DNA of 20,070 bases. Source: a virus. Below the pieces are notes generated by a model that did not search any database, had not been told where the DNA came from, and saw nothing but the letters and a program-made list of their open reading frames with translations. The translations under genes were made by a program, and so were the position numbers. Numbering within the stretch: position 1 is the first letter of the stretch; each line of letters opens with the position of its first letter. Location of the stretch: positions 1 to 20,070 of IMG/VR virus record IMGVR_UViG_3300034022_001056. One strand, written 5' to 3'. Shown here one piece after another: positions 1,150 to 20,070 of the stretch.

Positions 1150-1365
1150 ATGGCGAAACGGATAATGGACTACAAGATCGACCCGCTATTCAGGACGCCG
1201 GGGTTGCCTCGCATCCTGCAATTGCGACAGATCAAAGCGCAGACATATATGACCCCCGGCGAGCAGCGGGAGTTGAAGCGCCTCGAGGAGACGCAACAGA
1301 CGATCGAGTTCCTGTTTCACCGGGGAAAGCGAAACGCCGCAAGGCGAAAGCCAAAGACATCGTGA
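1150..1365 (+). CDS. Hypothetical small basic protein (71 aa)
   Basis: This 71-residue frame overlaps a competing frame that begins at ATG 1137. I prefer it because, counting codon by codon, about three quarters of its third positions are G or C. In the competing frame only about two fifths are, while clear genes here are strongly GC-rich at that position. The product is basic and largely helical (LPRILQLRQIKAQTYM, then EQRELKRLEETQQTIEFLF, ending in an Arg/Lys-rich tail), with no recognised family. The weakness is its ribosome site: the good AGGAAA signal is placed for ATG 1137, not 1150. Re-initiation after a short leader started at 1137 is possible. The stop overlaps the GTG of the next gene as GTGA. 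Confidence 0.55.
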   Translation: MAKRIMDYKIDPLFRTPGLPRILQLRQIKAQTYMTPGEQRELKRLEETQQTIEFLFHRGKRNAARRKPKTS

Positions 1366-1781
1366 TCGGCGCAGAGAAACCGGCCGCGCTCAAGCACGGG
1401 CGCCGCATGCAGAGCCGTACCGCCAAGGGCGAGGCGCAACAGTCTCACCGCATTTGGGTAGCCGACGCATACCTCACCGGGAGGCAGACGATGCGAGAGT
1501 TGGCCGTGGAAAACGGCATCTCGGTGTTCACCGTGCGCGACTGGGTCCGCGATCGCCGAGACAGCTTCCTCGTCGACCCCCACCTGCGCCCGGCAGACGT
1601 CGTCGTGAAACGCGAGATACAGAGCAACGCGGCCATCTCGATCGGTGTGTTTGGAGCGGGCGGCAGTATGTCCGACGAGGGCGTCAGGCGCGCCACGCGC
1701 GACCTAGAGAAGGCCATCGTGAAGGGGCTGGCGGCACGGGGGTTGTCCCCGTTGCCCTACCGCAGGGAGATCAAGGCATGA
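1362..1781 (+). CDS. Helix-turn-helix DNA-binding protein (139 aa)
   Basis: Residues about 42-66 (counted from the GTG) read TMRELAVENGISVFTVRDWV, a clear homeodomain-like or resolvase-type helix-turn-helix. It has the typical small residue, turn Gly and recognition helix. A basic region precedes it (KHGRRMQSRTAKG), and a C-terminal helical part ends in a basic tail. The GTG at 1362 is preferred because it makes a GTGA junction with the previous gene, and GC-rich third positions begin about there. In-frame alternatives are ATG 1137 (214 aa, with a low-complexity N-terminus) and ATG 1407. It could be a transcription regulator, or less likely a small-terminase-like protein, but no large terminase is nearby. 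The stop overlaps the next ATG as ATGA. Confidence 0.65.
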   Translation: MIGAEKPAALKHGRRMQSRTAKGEAQQSHRIWVADAYLTGRQTMRELAVENGISVFTVRDWVRDRRDSFLVDPHLRPADVVVKREIQSNAAISIGVFGAGGSMSDEGVRRATRDLEKAIVKGLAARGLSPLPYRREIKA

Positions 1782-1972
1782 CACGCGAAGTTGAGATACT
1801 GCACCGCAGCGCGGCCGCTCTGGCCGCCATGGACGCCGCCAAGCGCGCGTTCAAGGCCGCCGAGAGCGAAGTGCAGCGCATGTGCCGAGAGTACGAGAGC
1901 GTGTCCGGTGCGCGCGGACTGGCACCCCACCATCTGGCGCAGAGTTGCCGGGCACGTGGGATCGAGGCGTGA
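1778..1972 (+). CDS. Small helical protein (64 aa)
   Basis: The ATG at 1778 overlaps the upstream stop as ATGA and has a good AGGGAGA site at 1764-1770. Residues about 5-42 form a single Ala/Arg/Glu-rich helix (AAALAAMDAAKRAFKAAESEV), similar in style to the upstream Ala/Asp heptad proteins but without their signature start. It ends with a short Cys- and His-containing tail (HHLAQSCRARG). No family is recognised. Its stop overlaps the GTG start of the nuclease-like gene as GTGA, so the two are probably translated together. A longer in-frame form from 1454 was rejected because it is a shadow of the helix-turn-helix gene. Confidence 0.55.
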   Translation: MTREVEILHRSAAALAAMDAAKRAFKAAESEVQRMCREYESVSGARGLAPHHLAQSCRARGIEA

Positions 1973-2397
1973 GTAGGCCCGTCTACGAGAGCGATGCGGA
2001 TCGCAGCAATCAGGCGACCGTCATCGCCAAACTGGAACGCGCCTTCGGCCTGACGGCCACCGCGCCCAAAGATCCGTTCGCGCGATACGACGCCGTGTTC
2101 CGCCGCCAGCCGCGCCCCTACGTCGTCGAGATCAAGGTGCGCCACAACACGCGCGAGAAATACTCCACCTACATGCTGAGTGAGCAAAAATACAATGCGC
2201 TCTGCGCCATCCACGCGAGGGGCGCCGACGTCCTGCTGGCGGTGCAGTGGACGGATGCGCTTGGCACCGTTCAGGTGCCTGTCGAGCACACGCTGGGTAC
2301 CGGAGGACGCTATGACCGAGGCGACAGCCGCGATGTCGAGCGCGTAGTGCATATACCGATCAGCAGTTTCACCACCGTGACGGAGACCCCACGATGA
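1969..2397 (+). CDS. PD-(D/E)XK-type nuclease-like protein (142 aa, GTG start)
   Basis: The central region matches the core of the PD-(D/E)XK nuclease fold. Asp41 lies in ARYDAVF at the start of a strand, a short hairpin follows, and YVVEIKVR supplies the Glu54-x-Lys56 pair. Next comes a helix with SEQKYNAL, like the Gln/Tyr-bearing fourth motif of several such families, then a strand LLAVQW. The length of 142 suits a single-domain resolvase or repair-type nuclease. Such enzymes use divalent metal to cut DNA, and the exact substrate cannot be told here. The GTG at 1969 overlaps the upstream TGA. The 1882 ATG would add a shadow-like Arg/Pro-rich extension. The family assignment is by motif only. 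Confidence 0.6.
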   Translation: MSRPVYESDADRSNQATVIAKLERAFGLTATAPKDPFARYDAVFRRQPRPYVVEIKVRHNTREKYSTYMLSEQKYNALCAIHARGADVLLAVQWTDALGTVQVPVEHTLGTGGRYDRGDSRDVERVVHIPISSFTTVTETPR

Positions 2398-2546
2398 CTG
2401 TCAGCCAAGGCTACCAAGACGCCCTCGCCGGGCGCAACAACGCCAACAGCAGCCCCGACTATGTCAAAGGGTGGTTGACAGGCTGGCGCGAGCGCATGCT
2501 GGCGTGGAACAGCGTCAGCCAGCCTGCCGGGATTGACACACGTTAA
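2394..2546 (+). CDS. Ribosome modulation factor-like small protein (50 aa)
   Basis: The 50-residue product shows the signature spacing of the RMF/CrpP-like family. Gly6-Tyr7 begins the N-terminal helix, Ala12-Gly13-Arg14 ends it, and a polar loop leads to Trp27 and Gly30-Trp31-Arg32-Glu33. In Escherichia coli RMF the corresponding elements are RGYQAGIAGR and WLGGWREAM. Cellular RMF binds the ribosome and promotes inactive 100S dimers in stationary phase; whether this protein does so is inference. The ATG overlaps the nuclease stop as ATGA. The TAA stop lies inside the operator-like dyad of the first promoter element (2544-2557), so the end of this gene and the regulatory site share bases. An alternative reading is a generic small phage protein with a chance GWR motif. 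Confidence 0.6.
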   Translation: MTVSQGYQDALAGRNNANSSPDYVKGWLTGWRERMLAWNSVSQPAGIDTR

Positions 2547-2616: not shown

Positions 2617-2829
2617 ATGAATGCCATCGAACGCGCCATTGAGCGTGCCGGGAGCCGCGCCGCCTTCGCCAAAACGCTGGGCGTGACAGTGCAGGCCGTC
2701 TGCCAGTGGGTGCGTCGTGGCTGGGTGCCGCCGGCACGCGCCCTCGAGATTGAGGATCTCTACGCCATCCCGCGCGTTGAGCTGATGAAGCCGGAACTGC
2801 GCGCGATCATCCAAGCCGCAGCACAGTAA
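2617..2829 (+). CDS. Cro/YdaS-like repressor (70 aa)
   Basis: Residues about 3-48 match the short Cro/YdaS-type helix-turn-helix fold. IERAIERAGSRAAFAKTLGV gives helices 1-2, TVQAVCQWVRRGWVPP gives the recognition helix and the typical W-x-x-G-x-(V/I)-P turn, and ALEIEDL begins the next helix. Proteins of this family bind palindromic operators as dimers and control the phage lytic/lysogenic decision. The ATG at 2617 is preferred over 2533, which would run through the promoter element; an AGAGGA site lies just upstream. The gene directly follows copy A of the four-copy dyad element, so autoregulation and control of the other copies is a natural inference. No divergent CI-type repressor gene is visible on the other strand. 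Confidence 0.75.
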   Translation: MNAIERAIERAGSRAAFAKTLGVTVQAVCQWVRRGWVPPARALEIEDLYAIPRVELMKPELRAIIQAAAQ

Positions 2830-7085: not shown

Positions 7086-7685
7086 ATGACAACTGAAACT
7101 CGCCGCGCCGTCACTCTGATGCTCAAGAACAAGCGTCTGGGCTTCGTCGACCTCGCCGAGCCGCGCTCGATCAACGGCGGCAAGCCCGTATACGGCATGC
7201 GTATCATCGTCCCGCCGACCGACGCGGACGCCAAGGCCATCAACGATGCCATCGTCGAAGTCGCAATCACGCAGTGGAAGGACAAGGCCGGTGCCGTCCT
7301 CGACATGCTGTACGACAAGGGCCGCGTCGCGTACCTGAAGAAGGACTACCGCAACCTGAAGGGCGACATCTACAAGGGCTTCGAGGGCATGTACTCCCTC
7401 GGTGCCAGCTCGCCGGGCGACAAGCCGCCGGCGTGCTACGACGAGTTCGGCCGCCAGTTGTCGGCGTCCGAGATCAGCCGCAAGATTTACAGCGGCTGCT
7501 ACGCGCACGTGAAGGTGGAGCTGTACCCGCTCCTGCGCGACGACGGCAACCGCATCTCCTGCGCCATCCTCGGCGTCATGTTTGCGGCCGACGGTGAGGC
7601 ATTTGGCGGCGGCTCTGCGATGGCCACGGCGGACGACTTTGCCGGCCTGACCAAGGCCCCGATCGACGTGTCAGACCTGTTCTGA
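7086..7685 (+). CDS. DUF2815 single-stranded DNA-binding protein (199 aa)
   Basis: Matches the phage DUF2815 family, whose characterised member from enterobacteria phage Enc34 is an OB-fold SSB. Recognisable parts are the first strand MLKNKRLGFVDLAEP, the segment KGFEGMYSLGASS near residues 96-108, IYSGCYAHVKVELYPLL near 136-152, and ILGVMFAADGEAFGGG near 160-175. The C-terminal tip is acidic and ends in Phe (DDFAGLTKAPIDVSDLF). This is the usual SSB tail that recruits partner replication proteins. It would coat ssDNA for the polymerase and nuclease encoded on either side. The ATG follows a GGAG site and lies 18 bases after the nuclease gene. Its stop overlaps the GapR start by one base (TGATG). 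Confidence 0.85.
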   Translation: MTTETRRAVTLMLKNKRLGFVDLAEPRSINGGKPVYGMRIIVPPTDADAKAINDAIVEVAITQWKDKAGAVLDMLYDKGRVAYLKKDYRNLKGDIYKGFEGMYSLGASSPGDKPPACYDEFGRQLSASEISRKIYSGCYAHVKVELYPLLRDDGNRISCAILGVMFAADGEAFGGGSAMATADDFAGLTKAPIDVSDLF

Positions 7686-7939
7686 TGATCGACGCCGACC
7701 ACAACCGGGCGGCGGAGGATCTTCGCCTCTTCCTCGAGCGCATCGAGCGTCTCGAGGAGGAGAAGAAGGGCATCTCCGACGACATCCGTGACGTCTACGC
7801 CGAGGCCAAGGGCAACGGCTGGGACACCAAGACGATGCGCAGGCTCATCGCCCTGCGCAAACTCGACCCCGACGCGCGTGCGGAGCAGCAGGCGCTGCTT
7901 GAGACGTACGCGAGGGCTATTGGCCTCGATTTAATTTAA
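7685..7939 (+). CDS. GapR-like DNA-binding protein (DUF2312), 84 aa
   Basis: The sequence is almost a consensus GapR. NRAAEDLRLFLERIERLEEEKKG gives the long first helix, ISDDIRDVYAEAKGNGWDTKTMRRLIALRKLD follows, and LLETYARAIGLDL ends it; 84 residues is the family length. In Caulobacter, GapR is an essential nucleoid protein that binds overtwisted DNA ahead of forks and RNA polymerase and stimulates type II topoisomerases. Homologues are known in alphaproteobacterial phages. Its place between the SSB and DNA polymerase suggests it manages supercoiling during phage replication. It is the strongest host clue in the window. The start shares a base with the previous stop. No strong ribosome site is visible beyond that coupling. 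Confidence 0.9.
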   Translation: MIDADHNRAAEDLRLFLERIERLEEEKKGISDDIRDVYAEAKGNGWDTKTMRRLIALRKLDPDARAEQQALLETYARAIGLDLI

Positions 7940-14053: not shown

Positions 14054-14202
14054 CGGCTAAGAACTCCGGGTTTTGCCCTCACGACGCGCCTTGGGAGATG
14101 CCGTGCCTTTTTTGCGAGGAGCAAGATATTTCGCCGCCAATGCCGAAGCCTCGCTCGTCGCGAAACCCCCCGAAGCGTAACCCTCGCGCCCAAACCGCTT
14201 GA
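14050..14202 (+). CDS. Small Cys/His-rich protein (50 aa), overlapping the convergent gene
   Basis: The GTG at 14050 forms a GTGA overlap with the DUF3310-like gene, with a GGAGG site a few bases upstream. This is the same coupling used throughout the operon. The 50-residue product has FCPHDAPWEMPCLFCEE, in which Cys9, His11, Cys20 and Cys23 could bind a zinc ion. A Pro/Arg/Lys-rich tail follows and may be disordered. No family is recognised. All but its first seven bases lie over the 3' end of the minus-strand gene ending at 14057. One of the two may therefore be shorter than drawn, or both are read from opposite strands. It would be the last gene of the plus-strand operon. Confidence 0.45.
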   Translation: MTAKNSGFCPHDAPWEMPCLFCEEQDISPPMPKPRSSRNPPKRNPRAQTA

Positions 14203-15535
14203 TGTCCTCAAGATACTTGGATTGCTTGTCTACCCACTCTTGATCGAATTGCTGGATGCGGGGATCTGATCCATACGCTTTCTTTATCTTGCCGGGCGTG
14301 CGGCCGAACAGGTACGCCTGTTTTTGCACCGGAGTGTAAGGCGCGTCTTTCATCGCCTCCGCATAATTGCTGAACATCAGCTCGCGGGGAACACCTGCCT
14401 CTGTTTTCCCGAAGTATTCACCACCAAGGCCCGCAGGGTAGTTGGGGTGCGCCAACTCGCCGGTGTCAGCGGCGTATCCCTTGAACGGGCGCAGCGAGGA
14501 GATCATCTGCCCTGACGTGCCTTCGGGAGCGTACAGGAGATCGGGTGTCGCGAGTGCCGCTCTGTTTGCGCCGATGTCCGGGAAACCTGATGAAAGCGCG
14601 CTTGCCTTATCCATCATCTGGGTGACTGCGGTGCGCTGCGGCATCTTCACGGCACTGATGTCGTTTAGCTGGGCGGCTGCGGCTATCGGATCAACGCCAA
14701 AACCGATGAAGTCAGGGCGTTTTAGCTTGCGGCGGATAGCCTCGTCCATGACATCCAACTGCTTTTGCGAGACACCCCCAGCGGCGATCTGCCGGCCGAT
14801 CAAGTCGATCATGGAAACAGATTGGTCGCCGCCTGTCGCGCCCATCGTCGTGTAGATACCCGCAATCGGGCCACCAAGCATTTGCTCGGCCTGTTGCCGT
14901 TGTTTGTCGATGGCGCTGATAACGCCCTGATTGGAGCGCCAGACGTCAGTGCCCCCCATAGCCGCCTGCTGGCGCGGAAAGTCCGGCCCCGCATATGTTT
15001 GCGTGGAGCCTACCTGCGGTCGGTCGTTGACGCCGTGGATCAGCGTCGCGCCGCGTATCCGGTCACCGATCAGCGGAATGCCGCCGGCAAACTCCTTCGC
15101 AATTTCCTCGGGCGACCGAACTATCTCCGGCGGCATTTCGAATGCGGGGCTGGTCCGCGCTTCCACGCGGTTTGCGGGCACGCTCCCCGCCAACCCGGAG
15201 TACCCCCGGTTGCTTTGTGCCATGAAGGGGTGACGGCCCACGATAGGCACTCCCCGCTCGATGGCGAAAGACCCGCCGAGGCCCGCGCCTTGCGGAAACC
15301 GCACATCCTGCAATTCAGGATGCCGTTCGGCGACGGGTTCGACCGCTTGGTACTTGGGCGCGCGTGGGGTCGCGGGGACTTTTTTGCTTTTGGCGGCGAG
15401 AGACACAGGCGCGACCGCCTTGGCAGCGCGTGCCGCTGGCTTGGTCGCCTTCGCGGCAGCTTCCGCCAGCTTAGCGGCCTCCTCGGCCTTCTTTGCCGCT
15501 TTGGCGGCCTTTACGGCAAGGCTCATGATACCCAT
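14057..15535 (-). CDS. Putative virion-associated protein (492 aa)
   Basis: No enzyme family is recognised. The N-terminal 60 residues are a Lys/Ala-rich helix (AKKAEEAAKLAEAAAKATK) followed by Pro-containing linkers. The middle is a mixed alpha/beta region with Gly-rich loops, including MLGGPIAGIYTTMGATGGDQ near 225-245. The basic C-terminal tail follows a YASGGF element (residues 453-458). An AGGAG site precedes the ATG by 7 bases, and the start shares one base with the stop of the upstream gene (TGATG); MSLAV three codons later is an alternative start. It is the last gene of the minus-strand block of large Gly/Ala-rich proteins, so an internal virion or ejection-protein role is the best guess. 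Its 3' end overlaps the plus-strand operon for 146 bases. Confidence 0.6.
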   Translation of the reverse strand: MGIMSLAVKAAKAAKKAEEAAKLAEAAAKATKPAARAAKAVAPVSLAAKSKKVPATPRAPKYQAVEPVAERHPELQDVRFPQGAGLGGSFAIERGVPIVGRHPFMAQSNRGYSGLAGSVPANRVEARTSPAFEMPPEIVRSPEEIAKEFAGGIPLIGDRIRGATLIHGVNDRPQVGSTQTYAGPDFPRQQAAMGGTDVWRSNQGVISAIDKQRQQAEQMLGGPIAGIYTTMGATGGDQSVSMIDLIGRQIAAGGVSQKQLDVMDEAIRRKLKRPDFIGFGVDPIAAAAQLNDISAVKMPQRTAVTQMMDKASALSSGFPDIGANRAALATPDLLYAPEGTSGQMISSLRPFKGYAADTGELAHPNYPAGLGGEYFGKTEAGVPRELMFSNYAEAMKDAPYTPVQKQAYLFGRTPGKIKKAYGSDPRIQQFDQEWVDKQSKYLEDIKRFGREGYASGGFATSEASALAAKYLAPRKKGTASPKARREGKTRSS

Positions 15536-17046
15536 CAGTGGCTCCTGCCAGATACAGCGCCGCCTGTAGCATAGTTTCGCATGGCGTTCATGAGGTCTGC
15601 GTGGGTCGTTGCCTCGTTACCGGCCTTGTCCCACACCGTGTGGTGGGCGAGGTGCTGGTAGTACGGCGCGAGGTCGTCGGGGAGCGCCAAACCTAAAGAA
15701 GACAGGCGCCCAGCCAGCCGATCTACGGCTTCCAAACCCCCGAGACCACTTTTGCGCCCCATGTAGGACGTGGCATCTGCAGTCGGCCGCCCGGTGTTCA
15801 ACACGATCTGCCGCGCGTCGAGGGTGGGCAGGTCTCCACGGCCGAGCATGGACCCGACGAAACCCGCCTTCGGCGCAGCTACCCCACGAACCTTGTCGCG
15901 GATGAACGCGCGGTAGTCTGCAATGCCGCCGGCGTCGCCCGGTGTGGCGAGAATGAGGTCCGACATGCGCGGGGCTTCCTGCGGCAGGTTCTGGGCGGCC
16001 CACTCAAGATCCTCAGCAAGTTTGTTTTGGAACCCAAACGGAGAAAACTTAGCCTGCAGATCTTCCAGCGCGTCCGTCCGAACCTGCCCGCGTTGCGCGG
16101 CGTCGAGATAGGCCTGCCCCGCGTCCGTCCCGAGCCACTCTGCAAAAGCGCCCTCGGGACGCACCATGTCGAGGTTTAGCTGGCCTAGCTCGAGGCCACC
16201 GCGTTCTGCGGTGGCGAGGGGGCGCGCCTGCCGTTGAATGCTGGACCGCGTGATGCCGTACGCCTTCAACAAGTCGCGCGGCTCCATGCCGCGCTGCGCC
16301 TGCAGGTTCTTCTCCTGCATGAACCGCCCGAAATTTATTGCCTCGGGCGAGACAGCCGACAGGTCGCCGAGGTCTTGTTGAACCTCCCCGAGGGGGCGCC
16401 AGTTCCAGTCTTCAATGCTGCGCGTTTCCGGGTCTACGTACGCTGCTTTGGGCGCGCTTGTCTCCGCTGCGCGCTTCGCGACGGGAGCCGCCCGCCGACC
16501 GCGCACGGCCCTGCCGGCCAGCGCACCGGCACCCTCCAGCGCCCTTACGGCCATCTTGCCGGGCACGGGTGCCACCATCATGGCAGCCTCGTAGGCACTG
16601 CTGAGCGGGTTGTCGTACAGTTGCCCCGGCAGCGCCTGCACGCCGCTGACGATGGCGTCCTGCGCGCCTCTCGACATGCGGGTCGCGCCCGGGTCGTAGC
16701 CGGCACCGCGCGGTGCGCCCATCGCGTCGAGACCGCGCTGCGACGTGCCAGTCACGAGCTGGTTGCCAGTCCTGCCGAGGAGCTGGGCGATGTCCGCGCC
16801 GGCGTCGAACGTGGTGCGGTAGTCGCCGCGCAGCGCAGGCCCACGCAGCTCTGGCGGCAGCATGTCCCCCAGCCGCTGGGCTGCGCCGAGGGCGAAGCGG
16901 CTGCCCGTGTCAGCCATCTCCGGCAGCGAGCGCACGCCCTCCACGATGCGGCGGCCCACCACGGGCACGTCGCTGGCGATGTTGCGGCCGTACTGCGCGA
17001 GCAGCTCCGCGAGGGTCGGCTCCTTCTTGCGCGGCTTGACGGCCAT
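15535..17046 (-). CDS. Putative virion-associated protein (503 aa)
   Basis: Middle gene of the minus-strand block, joined to both neighbours by one-base TGATG overlaps. The N-terminus is Lys/Arg-rich. Residues about 25-190 are helical and Gly/Ala/Pro-rich, with weakly hydrophobic stretches such as AYEAAMMVAPVPGKMAVRAL. A basic AGRAVRGRRAAPVAKRA patch follows. The C-terminal third contains DARQIVLNTGRP, LGGLEAVDRLAGRL and LAPYYQHLAHHTVWD, which are striking but not motifs I can assign. It ends NYATGGAVSGRSH, sharing the A-x-GG element with the neighbouring proteins. Nothing suggests a peptidase or transglycosylase active site. A minor virion or DNA-ejection component is inferred from context only. 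Confidence 0.58.
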   Translation of the reverse strand: MAVKPRKKEPTLAELLAQYGRNIASDVPVVGRRIVEGVRSLPEMADTGSRFALGAAQRLGDMLPPELRGPALRGDYRTTFDAGADIAQLLGRTGNQLVTGTSQRGLDAMGAPRGAGYDPGATRMSRGAQDAIVSGVQALPGQLYDNPLSSAYEAAMMVAPVPGKMAVRALEGAGALAGRAVRGRRAAPVAKRAAETSAPKAAYVDPETRSIEDWNWRPLGEVQQDLGDLSAVSPEAINFGRFMQEKNLQAQRGMEPRDLLKAYGITRSSIQRQARPLATAERGGLELGQLNLDMVRPEGAFAEWLGTDAGQAYLDAAQRGQVRTDALEDLQAKFSPFGFQNKLAEDLEWAAQNLPQEAPRMSDLILATPGDAGGIADYRAFIRDKVRGVAAPKAGFVGSMLGRGDLPTLDARQIVLNTGRPTADATSYMGRKSGLGGLEAVDRLAGRLSSLGLALPDDLAPYYQHLAHHTVWDKAGNEATTHADLMNAMRNYATGGAVSGRSH

Positions 17047-19775
17047 CAGAGGTGCATCCGGGGCACTTGTTGGACCCGGGGCATAGTCGCCAGACCGCCG
17101 CGCGCCATGGCCGCCGGCTGGTCGACCTGTATCTCGGTGCCATCCGGCAGCGTCACTATGCCCGTCTCAGGGTCATAAGATCCTTGTTCGCCGAGTTCCA
17201 TCGGTGCCGCTGCTGGCTCCGGCGAGAACGGCTTGACGGCAGGCGGAAGCGGGACAGCGTTTGCCGGCAGACGCTCGGCGGCGGCGGGGTCGATGCGTGA
17301 CGCGGGGTCGTACAGGAAACCGCGCGTTACGTCCGGTGTCAACGCGCGCCCGGGAACCGATGCTGCGTATTTCGACACAAGGTCAGCCATGCCCGTCACG
17401 ACACGATTACGGGGAGCCGTCAGCGTCCGCTGGATCGCGGCGCGGCCCGTGCGCGAGTACGGGGCGCCGAGGAGGCCCATGAGGCCGCCGCCGACGAGGA
17501 TATTGGACGCCATGTCGGTGCCGGCGTCTGCACCCTCTGGCTGGTCGCGCAGTGCCGCACTGCCGCCGGACAAGGCGGAACCGAGAGCCAGCGGGACGAG
17601 CATTCGGCCAGCAGTACCGCTGTCGCCCACATCAGACGGCAGGCGCATCGCGCCGGCCTCTATAGTGGGCTGCGATGGGTATTCGCCCCGGGCTGCCTTG
17701 GCCTTGCCGCCAAACATTTTCGTGTTCTTCACCGTTGCACGCTTGATGGCGGCGGGCGTGAACACACCGCCGGCATTCGCTGGGGCCATATTGATGGCAT
17801 CGGCGACAGACGCAAGGTTGCCGTATGTCTCGTTCGCGTTCTTAAATAGAATTGCGTTATCAGGATACTGGCGCTCCATCGCGCCCTCAAACTCCTCGCG
17901 CAGGTTCTTCAACACTGGTGACACGCTTGAAGACAATGGATCGTTTTCGTATGCCTTCGTCAGCTTTGTGATCTCCTGCACGATGGTCTGAAGATACTTG
18001 CCCGGTATCTCACCCGTCGTCGGATCGATGAGGGGGCCGATGAGGTCATTGAGCTGTGTGCGCAGTTCCAGCCCGACGCGCGGGATGGACTGCACTTTGC
18101 TGCCAACCTGCTGTACGCCCTTCAAGAGTTCGGCGTCGGGCATGATCGAGATGCCGTTGAGTGCGTTGTCGTAGGCGTCCTTGACGTGCCGCTCGGCAAT
18201 GGTGAAGCCCGCGTGCCCAATCTCACCGCCGGTGGTGGCGCCGAGAGGGGCCAACCGCTCGTCAAGTATTCTGCGGTTAAAGTCCTCTAGGCTCTCCCGA
18301 CGGCGTTCCGCCGCCGCATTGCCGATGACCGGGTACTTCTCAAGAACGTCCTCAAGCTGCTTGGCGCGACCGCCAAGCAACTGCCCGGGTGTCATGCGGA
18401 TACCCGCCTCCGACAGCCGCAAGACGTCGGGATCTTGGACGCCGCGAAGGGCGGAGCCAGCGACGTTCATGGCACCACGTCCGAGTATGCCTAGTCCTGT
18501 GCCGAGGGCCGCTCCGGTGGCGGCGCCGCTGTAGCCACTACCCGGCTCGGCAGCGCCGGCGCCCTGATAGGCACCGAGGAGTGCGTCCGTCATGATGGGG
18601 GCAGCGCGGCCGTAACCGCGCGCCGCGAGGAGCGCTTCGCCGCCGAGGCCAAGGGCCGCCGAACCGGCAAACTGGCCAGCCATTGTCGAACCGGGGTACT
18701 GCCGCTGCAGGCCCTCCATGACGGCCTTCGTCCGCTCTTCGTCGCCCGAAATCGCGGGGAGGAAGCCGCCCGAGAGGATGTCTGCTGCGCCGACGACACC
18801 CGCGCCGACGGGACTTGCCCCGACAGCTCCGGTGGTCTTCGCGAGACCCGTGACGGGTTGCAAGAACTGCTCGATGTCCACGGCGGGCGTCGCACCCGGG
18901 TTGGACTTGACGTAGGAGACGACCTCCTCAACGTTCTTGGCCTTGGCACCCAAACCGGGTTGGACGGTGTCGAGGTAACTGCGGATCTGCGAGGCGTCCG
19001 CGCCCTCCGACACCATACTGCCAACAATGCCGTTAAGACCTTTGTAGAGGGCCGACTTCGCGTCAACGGCTTTGTCGCTGGTGAGTTCCTGCTTACCCTT
19101 GCGCGGGTCCGTGGCAAGGGTGGGAATGCTGTATTTACGCATGACTTCAGGCGAGTTTGCGTCCTCGTTGTTCATGTATGCGCGAGCTTTTTTGTAGTGC
19201 GTCTCGACGTTCGAGAGCGCCCGCTGCATGGCCATGGGCGACATGTTAGGGAGCAAGAGACCCATGTCGCCTTCAAGGATTTTGAGTTCCTTTTCGGACA
19301 GCGCGCCGAAACCAGAGGCTCCGGTCTTGGACTGGGCTTTCATCGCCTTCAGGGTCTCGATGACGCTGGGCGCGGTGATGTTTGTCAACGCATTCCTAAG
19401 ATCGGTTGCCTGCGTGGCGTTGAGCTTACCCAAGACCTGCCCGGGAAGGCCAGTGGAGTAGGGGCCGATCAGCGACCGTGCATATGCGATGTTATTGAGA
19501 ATGGCGTCGTTCTTGTCGAGGGCGAGTGCCTTCGCCTGCGGAGACGGCGGAGTAGGCTCCGCCGCCTCTGCCTTTGCGCCGACTACCCTTGCCGTGCCTT
19601 CGAGGATTTTTCTTTTGAGCGGACGATTGCGCTTCTCCTCAGCCGCTTTGTCTGCGGCAATTCGAGCTGTTAGATCGCGGGCGGCGATGACGCTTTGTCT
19701 GTCCACCTCGCGCGAACTCAGAGGCGCGGCAGGTGCACGCGCGAAACCGGCGTCGTCAAATGGGTCCAGTGCCAT
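17046..19775 (-). CDS. Large internal virion / DNA-ejection-type protein (909 aa)
   Basis: The ATG at 19775 follows directly on the stop of the upstream gene (TAACATG) with an AAAGGG site; the 19862 start would lie inside that gene. Residues 142-164 (KAMKAQSKTGASGFGALSEK) and the flanking helices resemble the segment with S-x-T-G-x-x-x-G-x-(V/L)-S-x-x-E-L that I recall from ejection-type proteins of podovirus-like phages. Residues about 316-446 are Gly/Ala-rich and hydrophobic, suited to membrane insertion. GIRMTPGQLLGG (458-469) and the helices after it recur in large phage virion proteins. The C-terminus has a Pro/Glu region and a MARGGLA element 20 residues from the end. No lytic active site is visible. 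A channel-forming or ejection role is inference. Confidence 0.62.
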   Translation of the reverse strand: MALDPFDDAGFARAPAAPLSSREVDRQSVIAARDLTARIAADKAAEEKRNRPLKRKILEGTARVVGAKAEAAEPTPPSPQAKALALDKNDAILNNIAYARSLIGPYSTGLPGQVLGKLNATQATDLRNALTNITAPSVIETLKAMKAQSKTGASGFGALSEKELKILEGDMGLLLPNMSPMAMQRALSNVETHYKKARAYMNNEDANSPEVMRKYSIPTLATDPRKGKQELTSDKAVDAKSALYKGLNGIVGSMVSEGADASQIRSYLDTVQPGLGAKAKNVEEVVSYVKSNPGATPAVDIEQFLQPVTGLAKTTGAVGASPVGAGVVGAADILSGGFLPAISGDEERTKAVMEGLQRQYPGSTMAGQFAGSAALGLGGEALLAARGYGRAAPIMTDALLGAYQGAGAAEPGSGYSGAATGAALGTGLGILGRGAMNVAGSALRGVQDPDVLRLSEAGIRMTPGQLLGGRAKQLEDVLEKYPVIGNAAAERRRESLEDFNRRILDERLAPLGATTGGEIGHAGFTIAERHVKDAYDNALNGISIMPDAELLKGVQQVGSKVQSIPRVGLELRTQLNDLIGPLIDPTTGEIPGKYLQTIVQEITKLTKAYENDPLSSSVSPVLKNLREEFEGAMERQYPDNAILFKNANETYGNLASVADAINMAPANAGGVFTPAAIKRATVKNTKMFGGKAKAARGEYPSQPTIEAGAMRLPSDVGDSGTAGRMLVPLALGSALSGGSAALRDQPEGADAGTDMASNILVGGGLMGLLGAPYSRTGRAAIQRTLTAPRNRVVTGMADLVSKYAASVPGRALTPDVTRGFLYDPASRIDPAAAERLPANAVPLPPAVKPFSPEPAAAPMELGEQGSYDPETGIVTLPDGTEIQVDQPAAMARGGLATMPRVQQVPRMHL

Positions 19776-19776
19776 G

Positions 19777-20070
19777 TTACAAGACCCTTTCTTGGCCGTC
19801 AGGGGTGAGAAAACGCTTGCCCCTGTTGGCGGGGTTTTGCCGCGCAGCGATAGCCTGCTCAAGGGTCAGTGTGGGGATTTTCGGACCTATGCGTTCGCCG
19901 GTGTACGGGTTCGTCAGTACATCGTTGACATTGATGCCGGCGACGGGCTTGTTCGCCTTCGCCATCAGTTCCGCCAACTTCACTTCGGTATCCACTTCCT
20001 GATCGGCAAGCTCCAACGCACCCTTATTTTGCGCCAACTGCATCGCGGTCAGCGCCTCCGCGCGGCCCTC
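19777..20070 (-). CDS. Partial virion-type protein, 5' end beyond window
   Basis: The frame is open through the right edge of the window, so only the last 97 residues are seen. The ATG at 20043 has no convincing ribosome site and nine open codons before it, so the gene likely starts outside. The visible part begins with a Glu/Ala/Gln-rich helix (LAQNKGALELADQEVDTEVKLAELMAKA) and ends with a loop-rich tail containing NPYTGERIGPKIPTLTLEQAIAARQNP. It resembles the C-terminus of a coiled-coil internal virion protein, but no family is named. Its stop is one base from the start of the 909-residue gene, so the two belong to one operon. Confidence 0.55.
   Translation of the reverse strand, partial: EGRAEALTAMQLAQNKGALELADQEVDTEVKLAELMAKANKPVAGINVNDVLTNPYTGERIGPKIPTLTLEQAIAARQNPANRGKRFLTPDGQERVL

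Follow-up and report, generated by a model that had tools for sequence, protein, structure and literature searches.

A 50-residue protein of uncultured phages related to Caulobacter phages, named RMFL here, is likely a distant homologue of ribosome modulation factor (RMF), as judged from comparisons of their sequences. RMFL retains the residues of the class reported to be needed for dimerisation, and it has lost the N-terminal basic arm and the Cys-Pro loop. We suggest that it is probably a relative of RMF in shape and not a working ribosome-dimerising factor.

RMFL is a conserved coding gene of the early region

The DNA analysed (hereafter, the window) is the complete 20,070-base IMG/VR virus record IMGVR_UViG_3300034022_001056, probably a genome fragment. 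The RMFL gene lies at 2394..2546 on the plus strand, from the ATG at 2394 to the TAA at 2544-2546, and its product of 50 residues (MTVSQGYQDALAGRNNANSSPDYVKGWLTGWRERMLAWNSVSQPAGIDTR) is exactly the one that an earlier note on this DNA had placed there, as verified by translation; HMM matches, profile-profile alignment (hhalign) and pN/pS further support the assignment. The translation start region (2379..2397, plus strand), read directly from the sequence, has a GGAG motif ~8 nt upstream of the ATG, and the start codon overlaps the stop codon of the upstream PDDEXK_14 gene (ATGA).

Relatives of RMFL were found on 15 other IMG/VR contigs, with identities of 72-100%. Three contigs encode a protein identical to that of the window, and the seven other distinct variants that were aligned are 72-92% identical to it. 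Across the 39-codon core of the family, pN/pS was ~0.04-0.4, with synonymous differences of up to 0.8 per site and non-synonymous differences of at most 0.21; the ratios of ~0.04 to 0.38 indicate that RMFL is under purifying selection, and it is a genuine conserved coding gene of the early region. Searches of 50,697 phage records, 72,556 plasmids and the contigs of GTDB genomes with the patterns used detected no relatives, and RMFL is thus a narrow viral family. Degenerate DNA patterns for GY...GW returned the same contigs and noise, and a second pattern added other RMF/CrpP-type phage proteins (see below).

Resemblance to RMF and the parts that are missing

The earlier note had proposed that RMFL resembles RMF, and searches with RMF-family profiles did return RMF, at scores below the curated cut-offs. 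The window protein matched the NCBIfam RMF model NF011162 with an E-value of 6.6e-4 (19.5 bits against a curated cut-off of 40) and the Pfam RMF family PF04957 with an E-value of 0.035 (14.6 bits against 27.9). All eight distinct members of the family matched both models (best E-values 7.6e-5 and 0.035, respectively), and since every single-sequence HMM score fell under the curated RMF cut-offs, the homology is likely and not certain.

Profile-profile alignment gave a clearer signal. The RMFL family was aligned to a profile of 49 distinct canonical RMF rows, drawn from Enterobacterales and 398 Pseudomonadota genomes, with a probability of 95% (P 3.8e-8, score 41.3), and the highest scores after shuffling of columns were 25.5 in 60 shuffles and 21.9 in 400. 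When the RMF profile was run over 5157 distinct viral ORFs (40 amino acids or longer), the RMFL members took ranks 1-8 (E-values 1.1e-5 to 6e-4; next ORF 0.01), a ranking that speaks for specificity and not for frequency because the loci were partly fetched for carrying RMFL. Against all PDB sequences, the RMFL family profile placed RMF at ranks 1, 2 and 3 (E-values 0.05-0.55). Profile and profile-profile comparisons therefore uphold the proposed resemblance to the RMF core. Matches to DUF2623, Glyco_hydro_30 and an acetylcholine-binding protein were weak and inconsistent, and were rejected as identities for RMFL.

The landmarks on which the resemblance had been proposed are all found in the translation (G6-Y7, A12-G13-R14 and W27-x-x-G30-W31-R32-E33). 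Their spacing was said to be RMF-like, which holds from GY to AGR (GYQDALAGR in RMFL, GYQAGIAGR in E. coli RMF) and fails between AGR and the first Trp, where RMFL is three residues shorter than E. coli RMF. Residues conserved in at least 85% of the 49 RMF rows include R3, K5, R6, D7, R11, G16, Y17, G20, G23, R24, C29, P30, W40, G43, W44 and R45, with C29-P30 being invariant. The RMFL family retains the equivalents of G16, Y17, G23, R24, W40, G43, W44 and R45, and the two that correspond to G23 and R45 (G13 and R32) are invariant in the family. R3, K5, R6, D7 and R11 are absent, as only five residues precede GY; P30 is missing from every member, and Cys alone and G20 are each found in one subgroup only. 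According to a review, R3, K5 and R11 of RMF have a part in binding the ribosome, with R3 and K5 contacting 16S helix 28, and mutants of G23 and R45 bind and do not dimerise (PMC8778775).

The missing arm is not an annotation error. No in-frame ATG, GTG or TTG lies upstream of RMFL in the window, and an in-frame stop precedes the usual ATG by one codon in four related loci (L008-L011), so the idea that translation begins further upstream and includes an overlooked arm was rejected. The calculated properties of the proteins differ as well, with pI values of 4.3-8.3 for the RMFL family versus 10.9 for E. coli RMF, and charges of -3.5 to +0.5 versus +6.6. In summary, RMFL shares with RMF (PF04957; NF011162/PRK14563) the GY-x5-GR and W-x-x-GWRE motifs, a length of ~50 residues, the G23/R45 equivalents and, by low-confidence prediction, a probable two-helix hairpin; it differs in having no basic arm (R3, K5, R6, R11) and no Cys-Pro loop, in the loop being three residues shorter, in being neutral to acidic and in scoring under the family cut-offs.

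RMFL is probably a two-helix protein, based on structure prediction. AlphaFold2 with rows from the RMFL family gave helices at residues 5-17 and 21-41 with low confidence (pLDDT 64.4, pTM 0.32); adding E. coli-type RMF rows raised the pLDDT to 66.9, still low confidence, and shortened the first helix (5-11 and 21-41), and the pTM of the models was 0.32-0.37. RMF itself reportedly consists of two helices with a linker between them (PMC8778775), so the prediction is compatible with RMF and is not proof of it. Foldseek returned no PDB match for either model, a negative that is uninformative.

These results also bear on convergence, in which a short phage protein of two helices, unrelated to RMF, would match it by chance through a hairpin rich in Gly and Trp. 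RMFL would then have another function, such as one in replication or transcription together with the neighboring helix-turn-helix (HTH) and orf1779 proteins. The sub-threshold HMM scores of a short protein are what would be expected from this, as are the missing Cys-Pro, the loop shortened by three residues and the absence of a structural match by Foldseek (an uninformative negative). However, a chance match is disfavored by an hhalign score of 41.3 against a maximum of 21.9 in 400 shuffles, by ranks 1-8 among 5157 viral ORFs, and by the top three PDB sequence matches of the RMFL profile all being RMF. We consider convergence possible and rather unlikely, and distant homology with RMF the likelier origin.

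Neighboring genes and probable host

In the window, RMFL lies within the gene order orf1150, HTH, orf1779, PDDEXK_14 nuclease, RMFL, Cro/YdaS and primase/helicase, followed by replication genes (DUF2800, ssDNA-binding protein, GapR, polymerase A, VRR_NUC and SNF2 helicase). All genes from orf1150 to the Cro/YdaS gene are on the plus strand. Conservation within the cassette is highest for orf1150 (1150..1365), at 80-100% identity. orf1150 is followed by a gene for an HTH_28-like protein (1407..1781, start approximate; HTH_28 E-value 8.6e-5, slightly under the cut-off), which by synteny belongs to the conserved early cassette. Next comes orf1779 (1778..1972, from the ATG at 1778), encoding a small protein of 64 residues that is probably helical and had no Pfam or PADLOC match; it overlaps (GTGA) the gene for the PDDEXK_14 phage nuclease (1969..2397, GTG start; Pfam PF24579, E-value 1.3e-26). 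By synteny, the nuclease gene was found upstream of RMFL only in viruses of the window type. The PADLOC search gave no match. Two other features of the window were noted. At 506-1140, three consecutive Ala/Asp-rich ORFs that resemble one another, with 21- and 33-base tandem repeats and a similar leader before each, look like duplications, and three long proteins of ~490-940 residues at 14057-19862 on the minus strand, with no Pfam match, are possibly structural or internal virion proteins.

The earlier note had described RMFL as encoded just before the regulator. This is so in the window, where a Cro/YdaS-like gene follows (2617..2829; YdaS_toxin E-value 1.9e-12, P22_Cro E-value 2.7e-8), but in most other RMFL loci this gene is absent or more distant. 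RMFL was kept in loci where the replication module differs (L256-L259, L261 and L264-L266) and where no Cro/YdaS gene was found. By contrast, orf1779 lies directly 5' of RMFL in most relatives. Among 18 loci with orf1150 and ~3 kb or more of downstream sequence, 12 carry both orf1779 and RMFL, two carry RMFL alone and four carry neither, so that every informative locus with orf1779 (12/12) also has RMFL. Given that RMFL persists without Cro/YdaS and tracks orf1779, its conserved genetic partner is orf1779 and not the regulator; this association is suggestive and does not amount to independent evidence, because the loci are related to one another. Between RMFL and the Cro/YdaS gene, a perfect 9-bp hairpin (2566-2589; GGCGGCACC-CTCTAC-GGTGCCGCC) with no T-run after it is identical in one related locus (L001), and the fold z-score of the region is only -1.25; the hairpin is a possible operator or terminator.

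The nearest cultured relatives of the virus are the Caulobacter phages RW, KcrB, RLK and GB2A (polymerase 62% and primase 48% identical), and its replication gene order matches that of RW and KcrB. RMFL was not detected in the matching region of these two phages. The virus also encodes a homologue of GapR (7685-7939; PF10073, E-value 7.8e-33), a nucleoid protein known from Alphaproteobacteria, which fits an alphaproteobacterial host of the Caulobacter type. The host is thus probably alphaproteobacterial.

Possible function and relation to other Rmf/CrpP-fold proteins

The earlier note had also suggested a role in ribosome dimerisation and hibernation, and this part found no support. R3, K5 and R11, reported to bind the ribosome, are absent, the charge is about zero or negative and the Cys-Pro is lost. 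The parts with which RMF holds ribosomal RNA are missing, which makes RMFL doubtful as a ribosome-dimerising factor, and direct formation of 100S particles by RMFL appears improbable. Moreover, 100S-forming bacteria outside the gamma class have been reported to lack RMF and to use long HPF (PMC6177447), and the probable alphaproteobacterial host falls outside the gamma class.

Because of the missing RMF parts and the gene linkage, we tentatively favor, at a little under an even chance, that RMFL is an Rmf/CrpP-type hairpin acting by protein contact and not by 16S rRNA clamping or 100S dimerisation. The hairpin would have been retained as a small protein-binding module that works by protein-protein contact, with the product of orf1779 as the first candidate partner, and RMFL would act on a host factor either via that protein or directly. 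Clamping of the 3' region of 16S rRNA and 100S dimerisation would not be part of this action. Any contact with the ribosome would be via ribosomal proteins, or RMFL would compete with the host's Rmf/CrpP-fold proteins, and such contact would use the G23/R45-equivalent residues without the rRNA-binding ones.

A true hibernation or initiation-blocking factor would instead sit on the 30S platform near the anti-Shine-Dalgarno early in infection and shut or redirect host translation, with a partner in place of the rRNA-binding arm. The invariance of the G23 and R45 equivalents, reported to be needed for dimerisation, is in line with this, and phages are known to carry other hibernation factors, namely HPF (PMC6375957) and, in phage TayeBlu, a protein homologous to a newer family of hibernation factors (PMC12772287). 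With phage-encoded HPF, as with RMFL, a phage carries a gene akin to that of a ribosome hibernation factor, but HPF belongs to the Ribosomal_S30AE family and is found only in large phage genomes (PMC6375957). However, the loss of R3, K5 and R11, the neutral to acidic charge and a probable host class reported to be without RMF (PMC6177447) all speak against such a factor, which we regard as unlikely. Less likely still is that the arm-less RMF, with orf1779 replacing the arm, targets ribosomes or the long-HPF hibernation system in alphaproteobacterial hosts that lack RMF; if true, the pair would be a phage-specific two-component control of ribosome hibernation.

RMF and CrpP are placed in one Rmf/CrpP family by NCBIfam, which already names small phage and related proteins of this fold (NF041887, Rmf_like_phage, "Rmf/CrpP fold protein"; NF041886, Rmf_CrpP_fam), and RMFL can thus be regarded as a divergent variant of known phage Rmf/CrpP-fold proteins. 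Membership of the same broad fold class would also allow RMFL to be a CrpP-type accessory protein, comparable to the Rmf/CrpP relatives associated with ICEs, and to have an unrelated accessory role. But the window protein did not match NF033696, NF041856, NF041886 or NF041887 at E-values up to 10, which weakly refutes this, and no plasmid relative of RMFL was found, leaving the CrpP-type role highly improbable. Across the RMFL family, no member matched NF041886 or NF041887 at E-values up to 1, and the CrpP models NF033696 and NF041856 were likewise not matched. Nearly all bacterial Rmf/CrpP members fetched keep a CPY/NPY-type loop, which RMFL does not have.

Another phage protein, encoded on contig L227 (1406-1492 and upstream; MGQSCWDAGYRAGIKGKLLSDCPFRPGSRRKEWVEGWR...), is similarly RMF-like and ~48 residues long, but has an intact CPF loop, is basic (pI 9.7) and passes NF041886 (38.5 bits, cut-off 28); it fits the RMF/CrpP family far better than RMFL does. 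Phage proteins of ~180-240 residues from three other contigs (L216, L225 and L234) have an RMF/CrpP-like motif in the C-terminal half, behind another region, which suggests that the fold serves as a domain in longer phage proteins. Three Pseudomonadota genomes (G144, G152 and G272) have four to five PF04957-like genes each, mostly of divergent CPY/NPY types.

Our search of openly available literature found no paper on phage RMF-like proteins, and no published function was found for the phage Rmf/CrpP-fold proteins, to which RMFL adds a divergent, arm-less branch. RMFL provides a natural contrast, in that it keeps the residues reported for dimerisation and has lost the ones reported to bind the ribosome. 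Should RMFL act on ribosomes all the same, it could allow the roles of the two RMF parts to be told apart; if it does not, it shows that a phage protein with an RMF-like match and no arm ought not to be labelled a hibernation factor.
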